From positions 310,001 to 374,000 of the forward strand of contig JALHOP010000003.1 of assembly GCA_022842935.1 (NCBI GenBank): 64,000 nucleotides of DNA, written 5' to 3'. Shown here in pieces: positions 2,797 to 59,657 of the stretch. A program made the translations under genes and the position numbers. Origin of the DNA: Myxococcota bacterium. GTDB lineage: Bacteria; Myxococcota; XYA12-FULL-58-9; JALHOP01. Each line of letters begins with the position of its first letter. The stretch's first letter is position 1. The notes beneath the pieces were generated by a model that saw only the letters and a list, made by a program, of their open reading frames with translations, did no database searches and was not told the DNA's origin.

Positions 2797-3246
2797 CTAA
2801 GCCGTGCTCAGGGCGGCAGCCATCAACGCGAGTGCCCAGGGCTCGGTCACGCCGGGACCGGAGCCGAACTCCCAGTGCGCCTTGCTCCCGCGACCCGAGC
2901 CGTACTCCCAGTGCACTTTGCTACCGACTCCCGCGCCATACTCCCAGTGCGTCTTGCTGCCGACGCCCGAGCCGTACTCCCAGTGCGTCTTGCTGCCGAC
3001 GCCCGTGCCGTAGTCCCAATGCGTCTTGCTGCCGATGCCCGTGCCGTAGCCCCAGTGCGTCTTGCTGCCGATGCCCCCGCCGAATTCCCAGTGGGTCTTG
3101 CTGCCGGGCCCGCTGCCATACTCCCAGTGGACCTTGGAGCCGGCAAGGCGACCGACCTCGGTTGGGAGGCTGCCCACGAATGGCTGGTCGGTGGCCGCGG
3201 CTGGCACGGACGCGGCGGAAGGGCCAAAGGGACGAACATTGGTCAC
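2797..3246 (-). CDS. Tandem 12-residue repeat protein with G-S-K-x-H-W-[EDG]-[YF]-G units; unknown function
   Basis: This 149-residue protein has a 35-residue leader without a signal peptide, eight adjoining 12-residue units (residues 36-131) and an 18-residue tail containing 'PWALALMAAAL'. Gly1, Ser2, Lys3, His5, Trp6, Gly9 and Gly11 of the unit are invariant. Position 4 is Thr, Val or Ala, position 7 is Glu, Asp or Gly, position 8 is Tyr or Phe, and position 12 is Val, Ile, Pro or Arg. The GTG start has a good AGGAG ribosome site ten bases upstream. Units differ at synonymous codons (for example three codings of Gly-Ser-Lys), which suggests selection on the peptide. It lies 83 bases behind an RlmN-type radical SAM gene on the same strand. 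I do not recognise the family; a structural repeat or a multi-core modified peptide are both possible. Confidence 0.75.
   Translation of the reverse strand: MTNVRPFGPSAASVPAAATDQPFVGSLPTEVGRLAGSKVHWEYGSGPGSKTHWEFGGGIGSKTHWGYGTGIGSKTHWDYGTGVGSKTHWEYGSGVGSKTHWEYGAGVGSKVHWEYGSGRGSKAHWEFGSGPGVTEPWALALMAAALSTA
2854..3141 (-). repeat. Eight tandem 36-bp coding repeats
   Basis: The eight 12-codon units of the HWEYG-type protein are encoded by adjoining 36-base repeats with no spacers. They are similar but not identical, and several differences are synonymous. They are therefore protein-coding repeats and not a CRISPR array. Confidence 0.85.
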
Positions 3247-20832: not shown

Positions 20833-23800
20833 CTAGACGTAGGAGATCTTGCTGCGCGAGGCCTTCTCCGCCTCGGTCTCGGTAAGCAACTCGTCGAGCT
20901 CACTGGTGACGTCGCTGCCACCTTCGCCGCGAGCGCGGCCAAGGCGCTCCTCGACATCGCGGAAGCTTGCGTCCCAGCTGTGAACCTTCTCGTAAAACTT
21001 GCCGGCCTCTCCGAAACGGCCGGTGGCTTCGTAGGCCACGCCGATCTCGTAGCGAAGGGCCATGGCCTGCTGCGCGGTCACCGACGGCGCGTTCAAGCCC
21101 CGCTGAAAGTACGCAAGAGCATGCTCGGTATCGCCGAGCTGGAGGGCGCATAACCCCATCATCGTGAGTGCTCCGATCGCCCGCGTTGGATCTTTCGCCG
21201 CGAGCTCGAATTCACGGATGGCGTCGGGGAGGAGATCCATCTCCTTGTAGGCGATGCCGAGGTCGTAGTGGGTTGCGTAGTCGGCTTCCTCGACGCTCTC
21301 GGCCACGCCCTTCTTGAAAGCGTCGAAGACGTCATCGAGCGACTCTTGCAGGTCGTCGTCCGCCGCAGCGGACTGGAGATCGGCCGCAATATCGAGACCC
21401 AGGTCGCCACCAATGAGCATCTCCGGCTCGGGCTCGTAGTCGAGCGCGGCGGCTGGCGGCAGGACCGGCTCCGCGGTGCCGTCGACCTTGGCCTTCATGG
21501 CGAGCAAGTCGGGGTGTGTCGGATGCTCGCGCAGGAGATTGGCGACCATCTCGCGCGCTTCGTCCTCGAGCCCCTGCTCGAGGTAGAAGCCGATTTCGGC
21601 TACCTCGCTGGCCAGATCGACTGGAGCGACTTCGGAGACTCCGTCGTTCGCTTTGGCGGCAGCTGCCGCAGCGTTGGCCGCCGCCTCGGTTTCGGCCGCG
21701 ACCCGCGCGGCTTGCGCCTTCTCTGCTTCGAGACGCTCGGCCTCGGCCCGGGCTGCCTCCGCCTTGGCCGCGGCTGCGGCCGCCAAAGCAGCCTCGTGAC
21801 GCTCGGCTTCCAGCTTTGCGGCGGCTTGGGCTGCCTCGAGCCGTTCGGCCTCGGCTTGCGCCCTGGCTGCCTCGTCGCGGGCTGCTTCCGCTTTAGCCGC
21901 TTCAGCTTTGGCGGCGTCTGCTTTGGCTTGCTCCGCCTTGGCGGCCGCCGCGAGTCGGGACTTGTCGGCTGCCGGCTTCGTTTCCTTGGGGCGCGAGGGG
22001 ACAGCGGAGTTGATCAGCGCGTCGAGATCGTCGTCGAGCTTGGTGGTCGTTCTGACCGGCTTGGCCTTTGCGGCGATCGGCTCTTCGGCACTCGGCTTCT
22101 CGGCACTCGGCTTCTCGGCGCTTGGCTCTTCGGCACTCGGCTTCTCGGCGCTTGGCTCTTCGGCGCTCGGCTTCTCGGCGCTCGGCTTCTCGGCACTCGG
22201 CTCTTCGGCGCTCGGCTTCTCGGCGCTCGGCTCTTCGGCGCTCGGCTTCTCGGCGCTCGGCTTCTCGGCGCTCGGCTTCTCGGCGCTCGGCTCTTCGGCG
22301 CTCGGCTTCTCGGCGCTCGGCTTCTCGGCGCTCGGCTCTTCGGCGTCAGGCGCTTTCGCCAACCAGTCCGTATCCGCTTCGTCTTCGACCTCGAATGTCA
22401 GCTCGAGTGTCGTCCCCGGCGCCGCCGTCTCGACCTCGATGCGAGGAGCACTCGTTTCGACGGTCGTCGGGGTGCTCTCGGCGAAGGTGAGCTCATCCAA
22501 CTTGCTGTGGGTAGGTGGCTCGTCTTCGAGCTCGACCGTGATGCCCACGGTGTCGTCGTCATCATCCCCAATGATGAGGCCGGCTATCGAGGGGGCGTCG
22601 ACGGCGCTCGTGGCGTCGAGGTCGGCGCCGATGATCGAATCGTCGTCGAGCTCCATCTCGGCGTGGGCGCCAATAAGCTCCTCGTCGTCCGCATCGAGAT
22701 CGATCTCGGCTGCTTTTTCGGACGGTTCGTACGAAAGCATGGCGGCGGCGGCCTCGCGCGGCGCGGCAATTGCCGGGACGTAGTCGTCGCTGACCATATC
22801 GTCGGTGATCGTCAGCTCGTCTTCGTCGAGCTCGTGCTCGAACGAAAGCGCCTCCGGGCCCTTGGCTGCCGCTGGGGCAAGCTTTGCGAGGAGGTCTTTG
22901 GCGCGTCGGTGGCCTGGCGTAAGGCTGAGCAGCTCCTCGAGGTCGCGGCGTGCGGTCTCGGTTTCGCCTTGCTCGACCGCTACCGCGGCCATGCCCAAGA
23001 GAACCTCGACGGCCTCTTCGTTGGCGCCGGTATCGATGAGGAGCGTCTTGTAGCGGGAGCGCGCTTCGCGGTGGTCGGGCGCTAGGGCGAAGATCTTGCG
23101 TAGGTGGTCGACGGCCTTCTGCTTCAAGCCGTATTTTATGTAGACCTCGGACTCGACCAAGATGCGCGAGATGGTCTCGCGCGTGTTGTCGCCGAGCCCC
23201 CCGCGCGTTGGCGTTGGCGCGACCTCGATGGCATCGGCGCTCGCGAGCTCTTGCTCGTCGAAGTCAGTCTCGATCTCGATTTCCTCGTCCGCATCGACTT
23301 GTGGCGGGCGACGATCGATCTCCTGCACCGGTGACTCGGGCCTTGCCTGCACGGCCTTCTGCGCCGGCACGATGCGACCGAGGGCGTTGTCGGGCAATTG
23401 CGAGGACTGCGCGAGCTGCGCTGGCGAGACCTCACCCGTGCCGCGACGCGCGGGCGCTGCTGGCGGGGATTGTTGCTCGGCGATGCCGCGCGCTGCGGCA
23501 ACCTGCGCCGGCGAGACCTCGCTGGTGCCTCGGCGTGCCGCGCCTTGGGCGGCGATCGCCTCCATGGCGGCGATCTGCGCCGGGCTGATTTCGCCCGTCG
23601 AGCGGCGCTGAGTCTGGTTCACCACCTGTTGCACCGCGGCGACCTGCTCAGGACTCATCTCGCCGGTGATACGACGCGTCGGCATCGCCAACGCTTGAGC
23701 GGACTGGACCTGGGAGGGCGACACCTCCATCGTGGGCCGGCGAGGTGGCGGCGTCGCGGGGCCACCTTGAGGTGTGCTTTGGCGTATCGGTGGCTGTGGC

Positions 23801-27881: not shown

Positions 27882-29692
27882 CTGGACCTCCTCGTAATGT
27901 ATTCCGTCAAAGCGGACATGGGCGCCGAGCGCAACTCGCAGGCGCCGATCGCCGTCACGATTGGGAGTCTCACCGTGCCACCAATGCGCTTCTTGTCGAG
28001 CTTCAATGCGTCGACGTCGACCTTGTAGTCGCGCCAGTTGGTCGGTAGCCCGATGGCGGCACATGCGGTTTTGAGCGTGTCGACGATGCCTTGAGGCGCT
28101 AGACGCTCGGTCTGAGCCCACTCCGCTTCAGCGATCATGCCCAAAGCGACCGCCTCGCCATGGGGAATGCCGTAGTCGGCACCGCGCTCGATGGCGTGAC
28201 CGATGGTATGCCCGTAGTTGAGTATGGCCCTGCGGTTCTTCTCGTGGCTGTCGGCCTCGACAACTTGGAGCTTGAGTTGCGCGGAACGACGCATGGCGCG
28301 CTCGGTGACCGCAGCCTCGAAGCCGAGGAGCGCTTCGGCGTTCTGTACGACGTCTTCAAAGAGCACCGCGTCGAGTGTCGCGGCCATCTTCACGACCTCG
28401 GCGAGGCCCGACGCATGCTCGCGCCGAGGTTGGGTCATCAAGTGGGCGCGGGCGATGAAGACGTGTCGCGGCATCGTGAAGGTGCCGACCATGTTCTTGG
28501 CGCGGTCAGTGTTGACGCCAGTCTTGCCGCCGAGGCTCGCGTCGACCGCGGCGAGAGTCGAGGTGGGCACCTGTACGCAGGCCACGCCGCGTAGGTACGT
28601 CGACGCTGCGAACCCTGCGAGATCGCCGACGACGCCACCGCCCAGCGCGATGACGCAATCCTCCCGGTCGAGCTCAGCCGCCTGCAGCGCATCGTATAGT
28701 GTTTCGACGACCGATAGGCGCTTCGCGTCTTCTCCAGCGGTTACGACGTGGGTGGTGACGATCTTGCCGTGCGCGCGGAGGTGCGCGAGGAGGGGGGCTA
28801 AGTGCAAGCGGGCGACGTTTGCGTCGCTGACCACTAGCGCGTTGCGACCGGGGCTCGCCTCCGCGATTGCCTTGGAGAGCTCGGGGCCGGCTGCATCGAA
28901 ATAGCTGACCGGGTGCGGGGGGCCGCTCCATACGGTGGCTTCGCCAAAGGTCACGTGTCGCATTGATTCTCGGCCATCGCCGCTCGGTGATCGGTTGTCC
29001 GCAATCGTTGACCGGCTCTCGGTCATTGCCAGTCGACCATCGCTCCGCGGAGATCGGCCTTCGCCTCTCATCTCTCGGACTTCGGTCCGGGGTCCACGCA
29101 GGCGGTCGAGCCCGAGCGCCCGGACGACGTTCTCGACGATCTGGGGCACCTCGAGATCGTCCGTGTGCACGGTCGTCTCGCTCTGCTGATACATCGGCGT
29201 ACGATCCTCGAGAAGCCGACGCATTGTTTTTTCTGGGTCTGGCCCACGCAGGAGCGGCCGCATGGCGCGCTGCTCGGGACTCCCCAGGCGTCTGAGCAAG
29301 GTGTCGGGCATGCCCGCGAGAAAGACAGTGCGCGTCCGCTGAAGCAGCCATTCGCGCATCTGCGCGTCCACGAAAGTACCGCCGCCGGTGGCGAGCACCA
29401 TGGGCTTCGGGTCGGCGAGCAAGCTTCGGAGCGCCTGTCGCTCACGCGCCCGGAAGCCAACCTCACCGAACTCGCGGAAGAGCTGTGCGATTGGACTACC
29501 TGCGGCTTCGGCGATGGCGCGGTCGAGATCGAGGAACGGGACACCCAAGCGCTCGGCCAAGGCTGCGCCCACGCTGGTCTTGCCAGCGCCCATGAACCCA
29601 ACCAGAGCGATGACGTCGCGAGGCGCGGCGACGGCACTTACGCGGGCTTCCCTCGGGCGGTCACCCAGTGGCGGTTTGGCGCGCTTCGACAT
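27878..29692 (-). CDS. aroKB: Fused shikimate kinase / 3-dehydroquinate synthase
   Basis: The 604-residue protein joins two shikimate-pathway enzymes. Residues about 25-195 are shikimate kinase, with the P-loop 'GFMGAGKTS' at 32-40, 'FRARERQALRSLL' for shikimate binding and 'RAMRPLLRG' in the lid. Residues about 245-604 are dehydroquinate synthase, with the NAD-binding 'GGGVVGDLAGFAASTYLRG', 'DASLGGKTGVNTDRAKNMVG' and metal ligands in 'NYGHTIGHAIE' and 'PHGEAVALGM'. The linker, about residues 199-243, is coded by a degenerate heptanucleotide array. aroK and aroB are separate neighbours behind pilQ-type genes in many proteobacteria, so this looks like a fusion of that pair. The start at 29692 has GGAG six bases upstream; an ATG at 29704 is possible. 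Confidence 0.93.
   Translation of the reverse strand: MSKRAKPPLGDRPREARVSAVAAPRDVIALVGFMGAGKTSVGAALAERLGVPFLDLDRAIAEAAGSPIAQLFREFGEVGFRARERQALRSLLADPKPMVLATGGGTFVDAQMREWLLQRTRTVFLAGMPDTLLRRLGSPEQRAMRPLLRGPDPEKTMRRLLEDRTPMYQQSETTVHTDDLEVPQIVENVVRALGLDRLRGPRTEVREMRGEGRSPRSDGRLAMTESRSTIADNRSPSGDGRESMRHVTFGEATVWSGPPHPVSYFDAAGPELSKAIAEASPGRNALVVSDANVARLHLAPLLAHLRAHGKIVTTHVVTAGEDAKRLSVVETLYDALQAAELDREDCVIALGGGVVGDLAGFAASTYLRGVACVQVPTSTLAAVDASLGGKTGVNTDRAKNMVGTFTMPRHVFIARAHLMTQPRREHASGLAEVVKMAATLDAVLFEDVVQNAEALLGFEAAVTERAMRRSAQLKLQVVEADSHEKNRRAILNYGHTIGHAIERGADYGIPHGEAVALGMIAEAEWAQTERLAPQGIVDTLKTACAAIGLPTNWRDYKVDVDALKLDKKRIGGTVRLPIVTAIGACELRSAPMSALTEYITRRSR
28965..29097 (-). repeat. Degenerate heptanucleotide array (GANNNCC) inside aroKB linker
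   Basis: Read on the minus strand, these 133 bases divide into 19 consecutive heptamers. Most fit or nearly fit GANNNCC, for example GAAGGCC, GATCTCC, GAGAGCC, GACAACC, GATCACC and GATGGCC. The reading frame turns three heptamers into seven residues with an R-x-P or R-x-x start ('GRSPRSDGRLAMTES'). It lies exactly between the kinase and synthase domains. Arrays of the same unit occur at 57488-57661 and 59052-59184. Confidence 0.75.
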
Positions 29693-57442: not shown

Positions 57443-57487
57443 GCGTTTTTCGGGGGGGCTGGCGGGAGAAGGGGGGGAAGCTTAATC

Positions 57488-57536
57488 GGCCATCGGCCAT
57501 CGGCTTTCGGAAATCGGCTTTCGGAAATCGGCCATC
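57488..57536 (-). repeat. Degenerate heptanucleotide array, minus orientation
   Basis: Read on the minus strand the stretch is exactly seven heptamers: GATGGCC, GATTTCC, GAAAGCC, GATTTCC, GAAAGCC, GATGGCC and GATGGCC. It faces the plus-orientation array 20 bases away, so the two could pair partly as an imperfect hairpin. Confidence 0.85.
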
Positions 57537-57556
57537 GACATCAGCTGCTGCCAACC

Positions 57557-57661
57557 GAGAGCCGAAGACCGAGAGCCGAAGACCGAGATCCGAGATCCGA
57601 GATCCTAGATCCGAGATCCGAGATCCGAGATCCGAGATCCGAGATCCGAGATCCGAAAACC
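57557..57661 (+). repeat. Heptanucleotide tandem array, plus orientation
   Basis: Fifteen consecutive heptamers on the plus strand: GAGAGCC and GAAGACC alternating twice, then GAGATCC nine times plus one TAGATCC variant, and a final GAAAACC. The GAGATCC part is nearly perfect and must be the youngest; the remainder follows the GANNNCC consensus. It lies 64 bases upstream of the dnaG start. Confidence 0.9.
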
Positions 57662-57725: not shown

Positions 57726-59657
57726 GTGGTCGAGAACGAGAAAATCGAGCAAATCCGCGCCCGCGCCGATATCGTCCGTATCATCGGCGCGCACGTGCAG
57801 CTTCGTCGTCAGGGCCAGCGCTTTACCGGCTTGTGCCCCTTTCACGGTGAGAAGAGCCCTAGCTTCTCGGTCTCGCCCGACAAGGGCCTCTTCTATTGTT
57901 TTGGCTGCCACGCCCGCGGCGACGTCTTCAGCTTCGTCGAGCAGATGCAGGGACTCGATTTCCTTTCGGCAGCGCGCTGGCTCGCCAAAGAGGTCGGCGT
58001 CGAGCTCGAGCCCGAGTCCCCGGCCGAGGCAAAGAAGCGCAAGCTCGAGAGCGGTGTCGCCGAGGTCAATCGTTACGCGCTCGCGTTCTTCCAGCACGAG
58101 CTGTGGGCCAAAGACGGCGCCGCCGCGCGCAGGTACCTCGATGACCGCGGCATTCCCGAAGAGCAAGCGCGCGAGCGTGGTTTGGGCTTCGGGGGCGCGC
58201 CGGGCAGGCTGCTGGCCTTCCTCCAGGCCAAGAAGGTCGCGAGCGAGGGCGTGCGCGCGGCAGGGCTACTCAACGACCAAGGTGACCGCTGTCTTTTCGA
58301 CGAGCGTCTCATTTTTCCGATCGTCGATCAGAACGGCCGCATCGCCGGGTTCGGCGGGCGGTGGCTCGGGGACACCAAGATCGATGGCGAGCGCACCCGC
58401 CCGAAGTACGTCAACACGCGCGAGAGCCCTCTCTTTAGCAAGCGCACGCTCCTATACGGTTGGGACGTCGCCCAGCCCGCCGTCCGCCGCGCCAAGCGCG
58501 TGACGATCTGCGAGGGTTACACCGACGTCCTCGCGTGCCAGCGGGCCGGTATCGAAGACGCGGTGGCGGCTCTCGGCACTGCCTTCACGTCCGAGCACGC
58601 AAGCCTCGTCAAGCGACTCGCAAGCGACGCTATCATCTTGCTCGACAGCGACGCGGCGGGTGAGCGCGCGAGCAAAGAAGCCGCGGAAAAGTGTATCGCC
58701 GCCGGCCTGAAAACTCTGATCGCACCTTTGCCGGCGGGTGATGACCCCGACAGCGTGGTGAAGAAGAGCGGAGCCAAGACGCTCGGTCACTACGTCAACA
58801 ATGCCAAACCCGCCGTCGAGCATTTCATCGACCGCGCCTTTGCGGACGCGGGCATGGGCGTCGAAGACAAGGCGCGCGCGGCTCTCGCGCTCTGGCCACT
58901 CTTCAAGGCCTTGGGCCCGAGCCTCGAGCGGGACTTGTATCTCGCGCAGCTCGCCAACAGAGTCGGCATCGATCAGGCCCAGCTCGAGAAGAGACTCGCG
59001 GCACAAGAGCAAGACGATCGACGCGCGGCCCGGGCCGAGCGCAAACCAGGCGATGGCCGGGGGCCGCTCCGTGATGGCCGATGGCCTGGCGCCGATGACC
59101 GACATCCGACCGCCGGCAAGCGAGCGCCGATGGCCGATGGCCGATATCCGAACGCCGATCACCGAGAGCCGATCGCCGAGGGCCGGGCTCCGGCGCCCGA
59201 GAAGCCTCGGCCTCCGCCGCAGCCCACCGACGACGAGCTGCGCGCGGTCACCGAGCTGCTGATTTACCCTCCCCTGCGCAACCGTCTCACCGAGCTATCG
59301 ACCTTTGCATCGCCGCCTCTGCTGCCCATCTTAGAGGCGCTGGTGGCTTCGGCCGATCCCGCCCACGAGATCCTCGCCCGCCATGGGGTTGGGCCCCGCT
59401 GGGTCAAGCTCGCCGAGAAGGCGGCGGCGGTGGTCGTGGCCACCCCGGCCGATGACGATGCCAACCAAGAAGAGCGACTCCAGAAGACGTTCGGGGACGT
59501 TTTGCGTAACTTCGAGCGCAGGCACGTTGGCGTGCGCAAACAGGCAATAGACCTAGCGATTCAGGAAGCCAAGGCGCGTGGAGAGCCCACCAATGAGCTG
59601 GAAATTCAGCGCAGAGACTTGACGTTGCGCCAGCGCGAGCTAAAACCGCGCGATTGA
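57726..59657 (+). CDS. dnaG: DNA primase
   Basis: The 643-residue protein has the zinc-binding domain (Cys37, His40, Cys58, Cys61; 'GLCPFHGEKSPSFSVSPDKG', 'FYCFGC'), the RNA polymerase core with 'FDERLIFPIVDQNGRIAGFG' and a TOPRIM fold ('TICEGYTDVLACQRAG', 'DAIILLDSDAAGERA'). The C-terminal helicase-interaction domain begins after about residue 495. DnaG makes RNA primers at the replication fork and docks on DnaB. The linker of about residues 440-493 ('MADGRYPNADHREPIAEG') is coded by a degenerate heptanucleotide array. The start is a GTG at 57726. rpoD follows on the same strand, as in the classical macromolecular-synthesis operon. Confidence 0.97.
   Translation: MVENEKIEQIRARADIVRIIGAHVQLRRQGQRFTGLCPFHGEKSPSFSVSPDKGLFYCFGCHARGDVFSFVEQMQGLDFLSAARWLAKEVGVELEPESPAEAKKRKLESGVAEVNRYALAFFQHELWAKDGAAARRYLDDRGIPEEQARERGLGFGGAPGRLLAFLQAKKVASEGVRAAGLLNDQGDRCLFDERLIFPIVDQNGRIAGFGGRWLGDTKIDGERTRPKYVNTRESPLFSKRTLLYGWDVAQPAVRRAKRVTICEGYTDVLACQRAGIEDAVAALGTAFTSEHASLVKRLASDAIILLDSDAAGERASKEAAEKCIAAGLKTLIAPLPAGDDPDSVVKKSGAKTLGHYVNNAKPAVEHFIDRAFADAGMGVEDKARAALALWPLFKALGPSLERDLYLAQLANRVGIDQAQLEKRLAAQEQDDRRAARAERKPGDGRGPLRDGRWPGADDRHPTAGKRAPMADGRYPNADHREPIAEGRAPAPEKPRPPPQPTDDELRAVTELLIYPPLRNRLTELSTFASPPLLPILEALVASADPAHEILARHGVGPRWVKLAEKAAAVVVATPADDDANQEERLQKTFGDVLRNFERRHVGVRKQAIDLAIQEAKARGEPTNELEIQRRDLTLRQRELKPRD
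59052..59184 (+). repeat. Degenerate heptanucleotide array (GANNNCC) inside dnaG linker
   Basis: The 133 bases split without gaps into 19 heptamers. Examples in order from 59094 are GATGACC, GACATCC, GACCGCC, GGCAAGC, GAGCGCC, GATGGCC, GATGGCC, GATATCC, GAACGCC, GATCACC, GAGAGCC, GATCGCC and GAGGGCC. The frame reads GAN-NNC-CGA-NNN-CCG-ANN-NCC, so each 21 bases give a seven-residue D-x-R-x-P-x-A pattern. The same strand, phase and length (19 units) are seen in the aroKB linker. Confidence 0.88.

Follow-up and report, generated by a model that had tools for sequence, protein, structure and literature searches.

A heptamer array in the interdomain linker of a fused AroK-AroB enzyme is probably a copy of a dispersed, S23/IVP-associated CCGANNN repeat

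In a Myxococcota bacterium, the linker that joins the two domains of a bifunctional shikimate kinase/3-dehydroquinate synthase is coded by a tandem array of degenerate heptamers, which raises the question of where this DNA came from and whether it had a part in joining the two enzymes. The gene, aroKB, lies directly after a pilQ-type secretin gene in the window, by which we mean the whole analyzed stretch of 64,000 nucleotides from a genome of 6.28 Mb (G000). The synthase part also contains the Pfam matches DHQ_synthase (residues 320-430) and DHQS_C (residues 433-572). The coordinates of the features discussed here are collected in Table 1.

Table 1. Positions of the aroKB gene, its domains, and the repeats discussed in the text, numbered along the window unless a locus or contig handle is given.
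Feature	Position	Strand	Support or detail
aroKB ORF, bifunctional shikimate kinase/3-dehydroquinate synthase, 608 aa	27878..29704	-	Pfam, TIGR01357
AroKB shikimate kinase domain, aa 38-197	29114..29593	-	Pfam SKI, PF01202, E=1e-40
AroKB 3-dehydroquinate synthase domain, aa 278-593	27926..28873	-	TIGR01357 aroB, E=3.8e-99
Degenerate CCGANNN heptamer array, 18 units	28960..29085	-	codes AroKB linker residues 207-248
Intergenic heptamer array between divergent recA and dnaG	57483-57538	CCGA on minus	
Second recA-dnaG intergenic heptamer array, inverted, 17 bases away	57555-57659	CCGA mainly plus	
CCGANNN array in dnaG (ORF 57726-59657), aa 442-493	59050..59203	+	
Loci of PIAER/PIAEx/PNAEQPKPDDRQ repeats	L077:3946-5748 (C3:163946-165748); L095:4599-7556; L244:5500-6300		

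The seven-base period of the aroKB linker, which the initial annotation had proposed from the sequence alone, proved to be highly significant. Identity at lag 7 was 0.48-0.49 against a mean of 0.257, a value not equaled in any of 20,000 shuffles of the same codons. The consensus is CCGANNN, with C2, G3, and A4 each kept in 16 of the 18 units; its score of 56 was likewise not reached in 2000 codon shuffles, the best of which scored 19. The array is thus real, although it had been counted as 19 heptamers (133 bases) and came out at 17-18 units (119-126 bp) under the four scoring settings used. The peptide had been read correctly, with R-x-P or R-x-x recurring every seven residues (TEVREMRGEGRSPRSDGRLAMTESRSTIADNRSPSGDGRESMR).

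A second array had been described in dnaG, where it lies between the primase core/DnaB-binding region and the C-terminal domain, and the two had been thought to have the same number of units. They do not: under all four settings, the 17-18 units of aroKB compare with 22 units (154 bp) in dnaG. The common codon phase that had also been remarked on carries no information because 7 and 3 are coprime and all three frames are used, so that every sense-strand heptamer array yields the same heptapeptide; the strand common to both genes, with CCGA in the sense direction, is a real coincidence. The suspected kinship of the two arrays was confirmed, as both belong to one repeat family.

Did the repeat create the fusion? 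According to the initial annotation, the array may have bridged two formerly adjacent genes, and it does sit exactly at the junction between AroK and AroB; moreover, some members of the phylum have aroK and aroB adjacent but unfused. The comparison with sister taxa that had been suggested as a check, however, turned up fusions with unrelated linkers, the very outcome named beforehand as speaking against such a role. Four other families of the order also have AroK fused to AroB (G001, G005, G003, and G002); their linkers are short or unrelated, with no CCGANNN array found in them, and at locus L011 the linker is of similar length but unrelated sequence. In G002 the genome is full of CCGANNN arrays, while its own AroKB linker is very short and free of them. 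Fusion ORFs also occur further out in the phylum, and bridging could be rescued only if all these fusions were independent events, which makes it most improbable as the origin of the gene. From these sequence comparisons we infer that the fusion predates the array or, at any rate, does not depend on it.

The array is one member of a dispersed family. A profile built from ten sequences gave 120 matches in G000, which group into some 40 strong loci and additional weaker ones; as the aroKB array was among the ten, its own match is not independent evidence. Across the order, for which eight genomes were compared (G000 to G007), the profile matched 140 times in G002, and the six other genomes had none or two weak matches. 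With a search for four copies of the pattern, 4 of 97 relatives matched, nearly all matches falling in G000 and G002. Within 450 kb of contig 3, every strong period-7 array had the CCGA core. The idea that CCGANNN arrays are peculiar to this clade was rejected because the motif is present in many phyla.

By a simple codon-based gene finder, 31 of the 41 scored arrays of G000 were classed as non-coding (9 of them at contig or stretch ends) and 10 as lying in predicted coding sequences. Arrays are therefore overrepresented in non-coding DNA, even though the window is 94% coding. About ten contig ends of G000 (C3, C5, C6, C9, C10, C12, C15, C23, C24, and C25) lie within approximately 400 bases of an array, indicating that the arrays, or longer repeats adjoining them, break the assembly and that their number is underestimated. 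The orientation of the arrays fitted the local GC skew in 15 of 26 cases, which gives no signal of a replication-strand bias.

Several further observations were made on these repeats. The inverted arrays of the recA-dnaG intergenic region could fold into a long hairpin; a similar inversion is seen in the arrays on the two sides of PF05635 genes in other places. A stretch of about 70 bases that is not heptameric (GTGCGAGCCGTTACGAAAGACTTGCTGCGAG...) recurs between arrays on several G002 contigs (L100 6310-6400 and L103 8330-8420). A contig labeled 'Myxococcota bacterium Arabian9_MAG_24' (L179) equals G002 contig C451 in the positions of its arrays and genes.

True period-7 arrays account for seven of the ten cases within coding sequences, the other three being in-frame repeats of 15 or 36 nt. 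The seven genes code for DnaG, DnaX, RecG, AroKB, a DUF2339 membrane protein, a weak SprT-like protein, and an unassigned protein. In DnaG, AroKB, and DnaX the array lies between domains (in DnaX, between domain III and the tau C-terminal region), and in RecG and the DUF2339 protein it codes for an N-terminal segment ahead of the recognized domains. In dnaG of six relatives, the linker was found to have no CCGANNN array. In six of the seven genes the sense strand carries CCGA and specifies [AST]-[DE]-x-R-x-P-x, a charged, Pro/Gly/Ser-rich heptad; judging from this composition, the interdomain linkers coded by the arrays are probably disordered. All seven genic arrays are open, as required, whereas 18 of the 31 intergenic arrays, in a comparison from which the 15- and 36-nt repeats were left out, have stop codons in all three frames of the CCGA strand.

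The in-gene 15- and 36-nt repeats (PIAER, PIAEx, and PNAEQPKPDDRQ) occur in a Ser/Thr kinase, a response-regulator/DUF4388 protein, and a TPR protein, and they look like CCGANNN heptamers with one base added per two or five units, which makes them divisible by three. Two unrelated tandem repeats in the window, a 36-nt repeat at 2863-3129 (7.4 copies) and a 15-nt repeat at 22071-22345 (18 copies), are also divisible by three and overlap predicted coding regions.

Within the genes, substitutions follow the codons. At the positions that specify Arg (CG of CGA) and Asp/Glu (GA of GAN), 3 of 110 were mismatched against 11.2 expected when phases were shuffled within arrays (P=0.0002), the DUF2339 gene being omitted as its units are recent 21-nt copies. 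For aroKB alone, the figure was 0 of 24 against 2.7 expected (P=0.013). Selection thus acts at present on the encoded protein, as would fit a charged spacer. One might go further and suppose that selection for a repeated peptide linker set the period, with the DNA repeat as a by-product, given that the same heptapeptide recurs in several proteins with its Arg and Asp/Glu codons protected. The DNA, however, repeats every 7 nt and not every 21, and non-coding regions are filled with the same repeat, in which every sense frame is often interrupted by stops; a peptide-first origin is accordingly very unlikely.

The arrays might instead be selected as DNA, as nucleoid or regulatory binding sites, three units making 21 bp or about two helical turns. 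A conserved core with the other positions free would suit such a role, as would the clustering of the arrays: pairs no more than 3.5 kb apart numbered 5 against 0.78 expected by random placement (P=0.001). Yet conservation in genes tracks the codon phase and not the DNA core, and gene contexts and orientations are varied, with no common regulatory position. We consider binding sites an improbable explanation.

A different lead came from the genes that lie between arrays. In G002, repeated segments of 0.8 kb between arrays code for two divergent PF05635 proteins (23S_rRNA_IVP/S23, TIGR02436 four helix bundle), a family for which the sole sequence relative found in the PDB was 2GSC, XCC0516 of Xanthomonas campestris. 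G000 has two PF05635 genes and G002 has 15; there was one sub-threshold match in G006, and none was found in G001, G003, G004, G005, or G007. Clear PF05635 genes in the order are therefore limited to the two array-bearing genomes, a correlation of two against six genomes in which the placement of G002 is poorly supported (two-protein tree). The two genes of G000 form a single divergent pair (C1:1280-1956) between arrays at C1:883-1021 and C1:2123-2458, and most G002 copies also lie between arrays of the motif dispersed in that genome. Both genes of G000 being on contig 1, the aroKB array has no PF05635 gene beside it and is a solo copy.

The association extends beyond this order. Among 30 PF05635 loci from diverse phyla, in genomes chosen for holding a CCGANNN array somewhere, 18 had a period-7 array within 400 bases and 19 had one of any period from 6 to 8. 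Each had its own motif, often inverted across the two sides; of the repeat segments around these loci, 45 had period 7 and 5 had any other period between 4 and 12. GGGACCN heptamers lie on both sides of a PF05635 ORF in Xanthomonas codiaei. Among 28 Myxococcota loci drawn without selection for arrays, 19 had arrays of period 6-8 (13 of period 6 and 9 of period 7). Among the controls, flanking arrays were present at 1 of 29 aroB loci, at 0 of 6 dnaG loci, and, for period 7, at 0 of 150 shuffled loci. Arrays of 6-nt units lie beside PF05635 in the Myxococcota loci L314, L316-L320, L326, L327, L329, and L332. The unit length beside PF05635 genes seems to be lineage-specific.

In all three genomes checked (G000, G002, and G209), the motif flanking PF05635 is also the genome's dispersed motif; in G209 this is CTACCGG, with 35 matches there and one match in 17 other genomes. 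Of 50 genomes with arrays, 42 encode PF05635; among 193 Myxococcota the number is 55, and among 14 control genomes it is zero. This comparison is only suggestive because the groups differ in taxonomy. The idea of a PF05635 gene near every heptamer array was rejected, as one was present in the retrieved flanks of only 2 of 119 array loci. Against a link to S23/IVP genes stand the roughly one third of PF05635 loci that have no array of 6-8 nt at the threshold used, and the many unrelated bacteria with isolated CCGANNN arrays and no PF05635 in the retrieved flank. In the open-access literature, subscription papers and preprints aside, we found no report of a general association between PF05635 and short arrays.

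Plain replication slippage could also account for much of this, heptamers being seeded by chance and expanding where they are tolerated, in intergenic DNA and linkers, with PF05635 a bystander or inserting there. Units are homogenized locally, runs of CCGATTG for example giving way to runs of CCGATGA, so slippage must at least contribute; besides, many bacteria have heptamer arrays, and several genomes have an excess of heptameric SSRs (PMC4692102). Chance seeding does not sit well, however, with a CCGA core common to all the strong arrays of contig 3 surveyed, with genome-specific motifs equal to the array beside PF05635 in three genomes, or with the lack of arrays in most relatives that have had similar opportunity. 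As the whole explanation, slippage seems to us rather unlikely.

With a probability of roughly 75%, then, the aroKB array is a copy of a dispersed, S23/IVP-associated CCGANNN repeat that arose in or entered the linker of an already fused enzyme and was kept as a spacer. The fusion would have come first, an order of events that we infer; the array would later have arisen in, or entered, the tolerant interdomain linker. It could have been kept there because the CCGA sense strand is free of stops in the frame used and reads as the hydrophilic, charged, and probably disordered heptapeptide [AST]-[DE]-x-R-x-P-x. From then on, selection would have preserved the codons for Arg and Asp/Glu as the remaining positions of the array decayed. 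Whether the S23/IVP module actively makes or spreads arrays, instead of living in them, is the least certain part, and we regard an active role as possible but doubtful. Equally tentative is the wider proposal that S23/IVP proteins belong to a widespread class of elements, each a gene with arrays of 6-8 nt and a lineage-specific motif, whose arrays are dispersed and captured as linkers of essential genes such as dnaG, dnaX, and aroKB.

We know of no agreed cause for the heptamer families of Xanthomonas, cyanobacteria, and Beggiatoaceae, nor, to our knowledge, has a clear role been assigned to S23/IVP proteins other than those of rRNA intervening sequences. A tight and recurrent link between PF05635 and arrays, if true, would make both questions testable. 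In aroKB and dnaG, DNA of a non-coding type, whose unit is not a multiple of three, has become selected protein sequence in essential enzymes.

Several known systems resemble parts of this picture. Avd of diversity-generating retroelements is a homologous four-helix-bundle family (PMC10053308), but no RVT_1 match was found in G000 or G002; the arrays are hence not part of such a retroelement, and a similar route would be one without a visible enzyme. In Coxiella burnetii, the S23p ORF of the 23S rRNA intervening sequence is preceded by tandem GACAGAT heptamers whose number varies among strains (PMC4990558). There, too, a PF05635-type ORF adjoins heptamers, although its site is within 23S rRNA and the repeats number two or three, whereas here a divergent gene pair lies between long arrays of a genome-dispersed motif. 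The heptameric repeats of Xanthomonas (GGGNATC/GGGANTN) and Nostoc (GGGGA(C/T)T), for which the study describing them reports no general link to mobile elements (PMC4692102), share with CCGANNN a 7-nt unit, a fixed core with free positions, many loci, a mostly non-coding location, and a clade-restricted distribution. They differ in that CCGANNN has no run of three or four G, its core CCGA/TCGG offering only GG and so no obvious G-quadruplex as far as the motif tells, and in that its arrays lie in linkers of essential genes and bracket S23/IVP genes. The TAACTGA direct repeats of Beggiatoaceae and others are also genome-wide heptamers, with in-gene copies tolerated mainly at the protein periphery (PMC4679880); unlike CCGANNN, they are invariant and contain in-frame stops, and they occur mostly as two to six copies and mostly just upstream of start codons. 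Borg tandem repeats create amino-acid repeats in disordered regions (PMC9879509); the genic CCGANNN arrays also give amino-acid repeats, in segments that, by composition, may be disordered. Borg units within ORFs, however, are nearly perfect and all divisible by three, while all unit steps within the aroKB array are 7 nt and its unit is degenerate and common to many loci. Heptamer families and repeats turned linkers are thus each already known (PMC4692102, PMC4679880, PMC9879509), and a heptamer unit, not divisible by three, that is selected as protein in the linkers of essential genes is a variant of these known cases.
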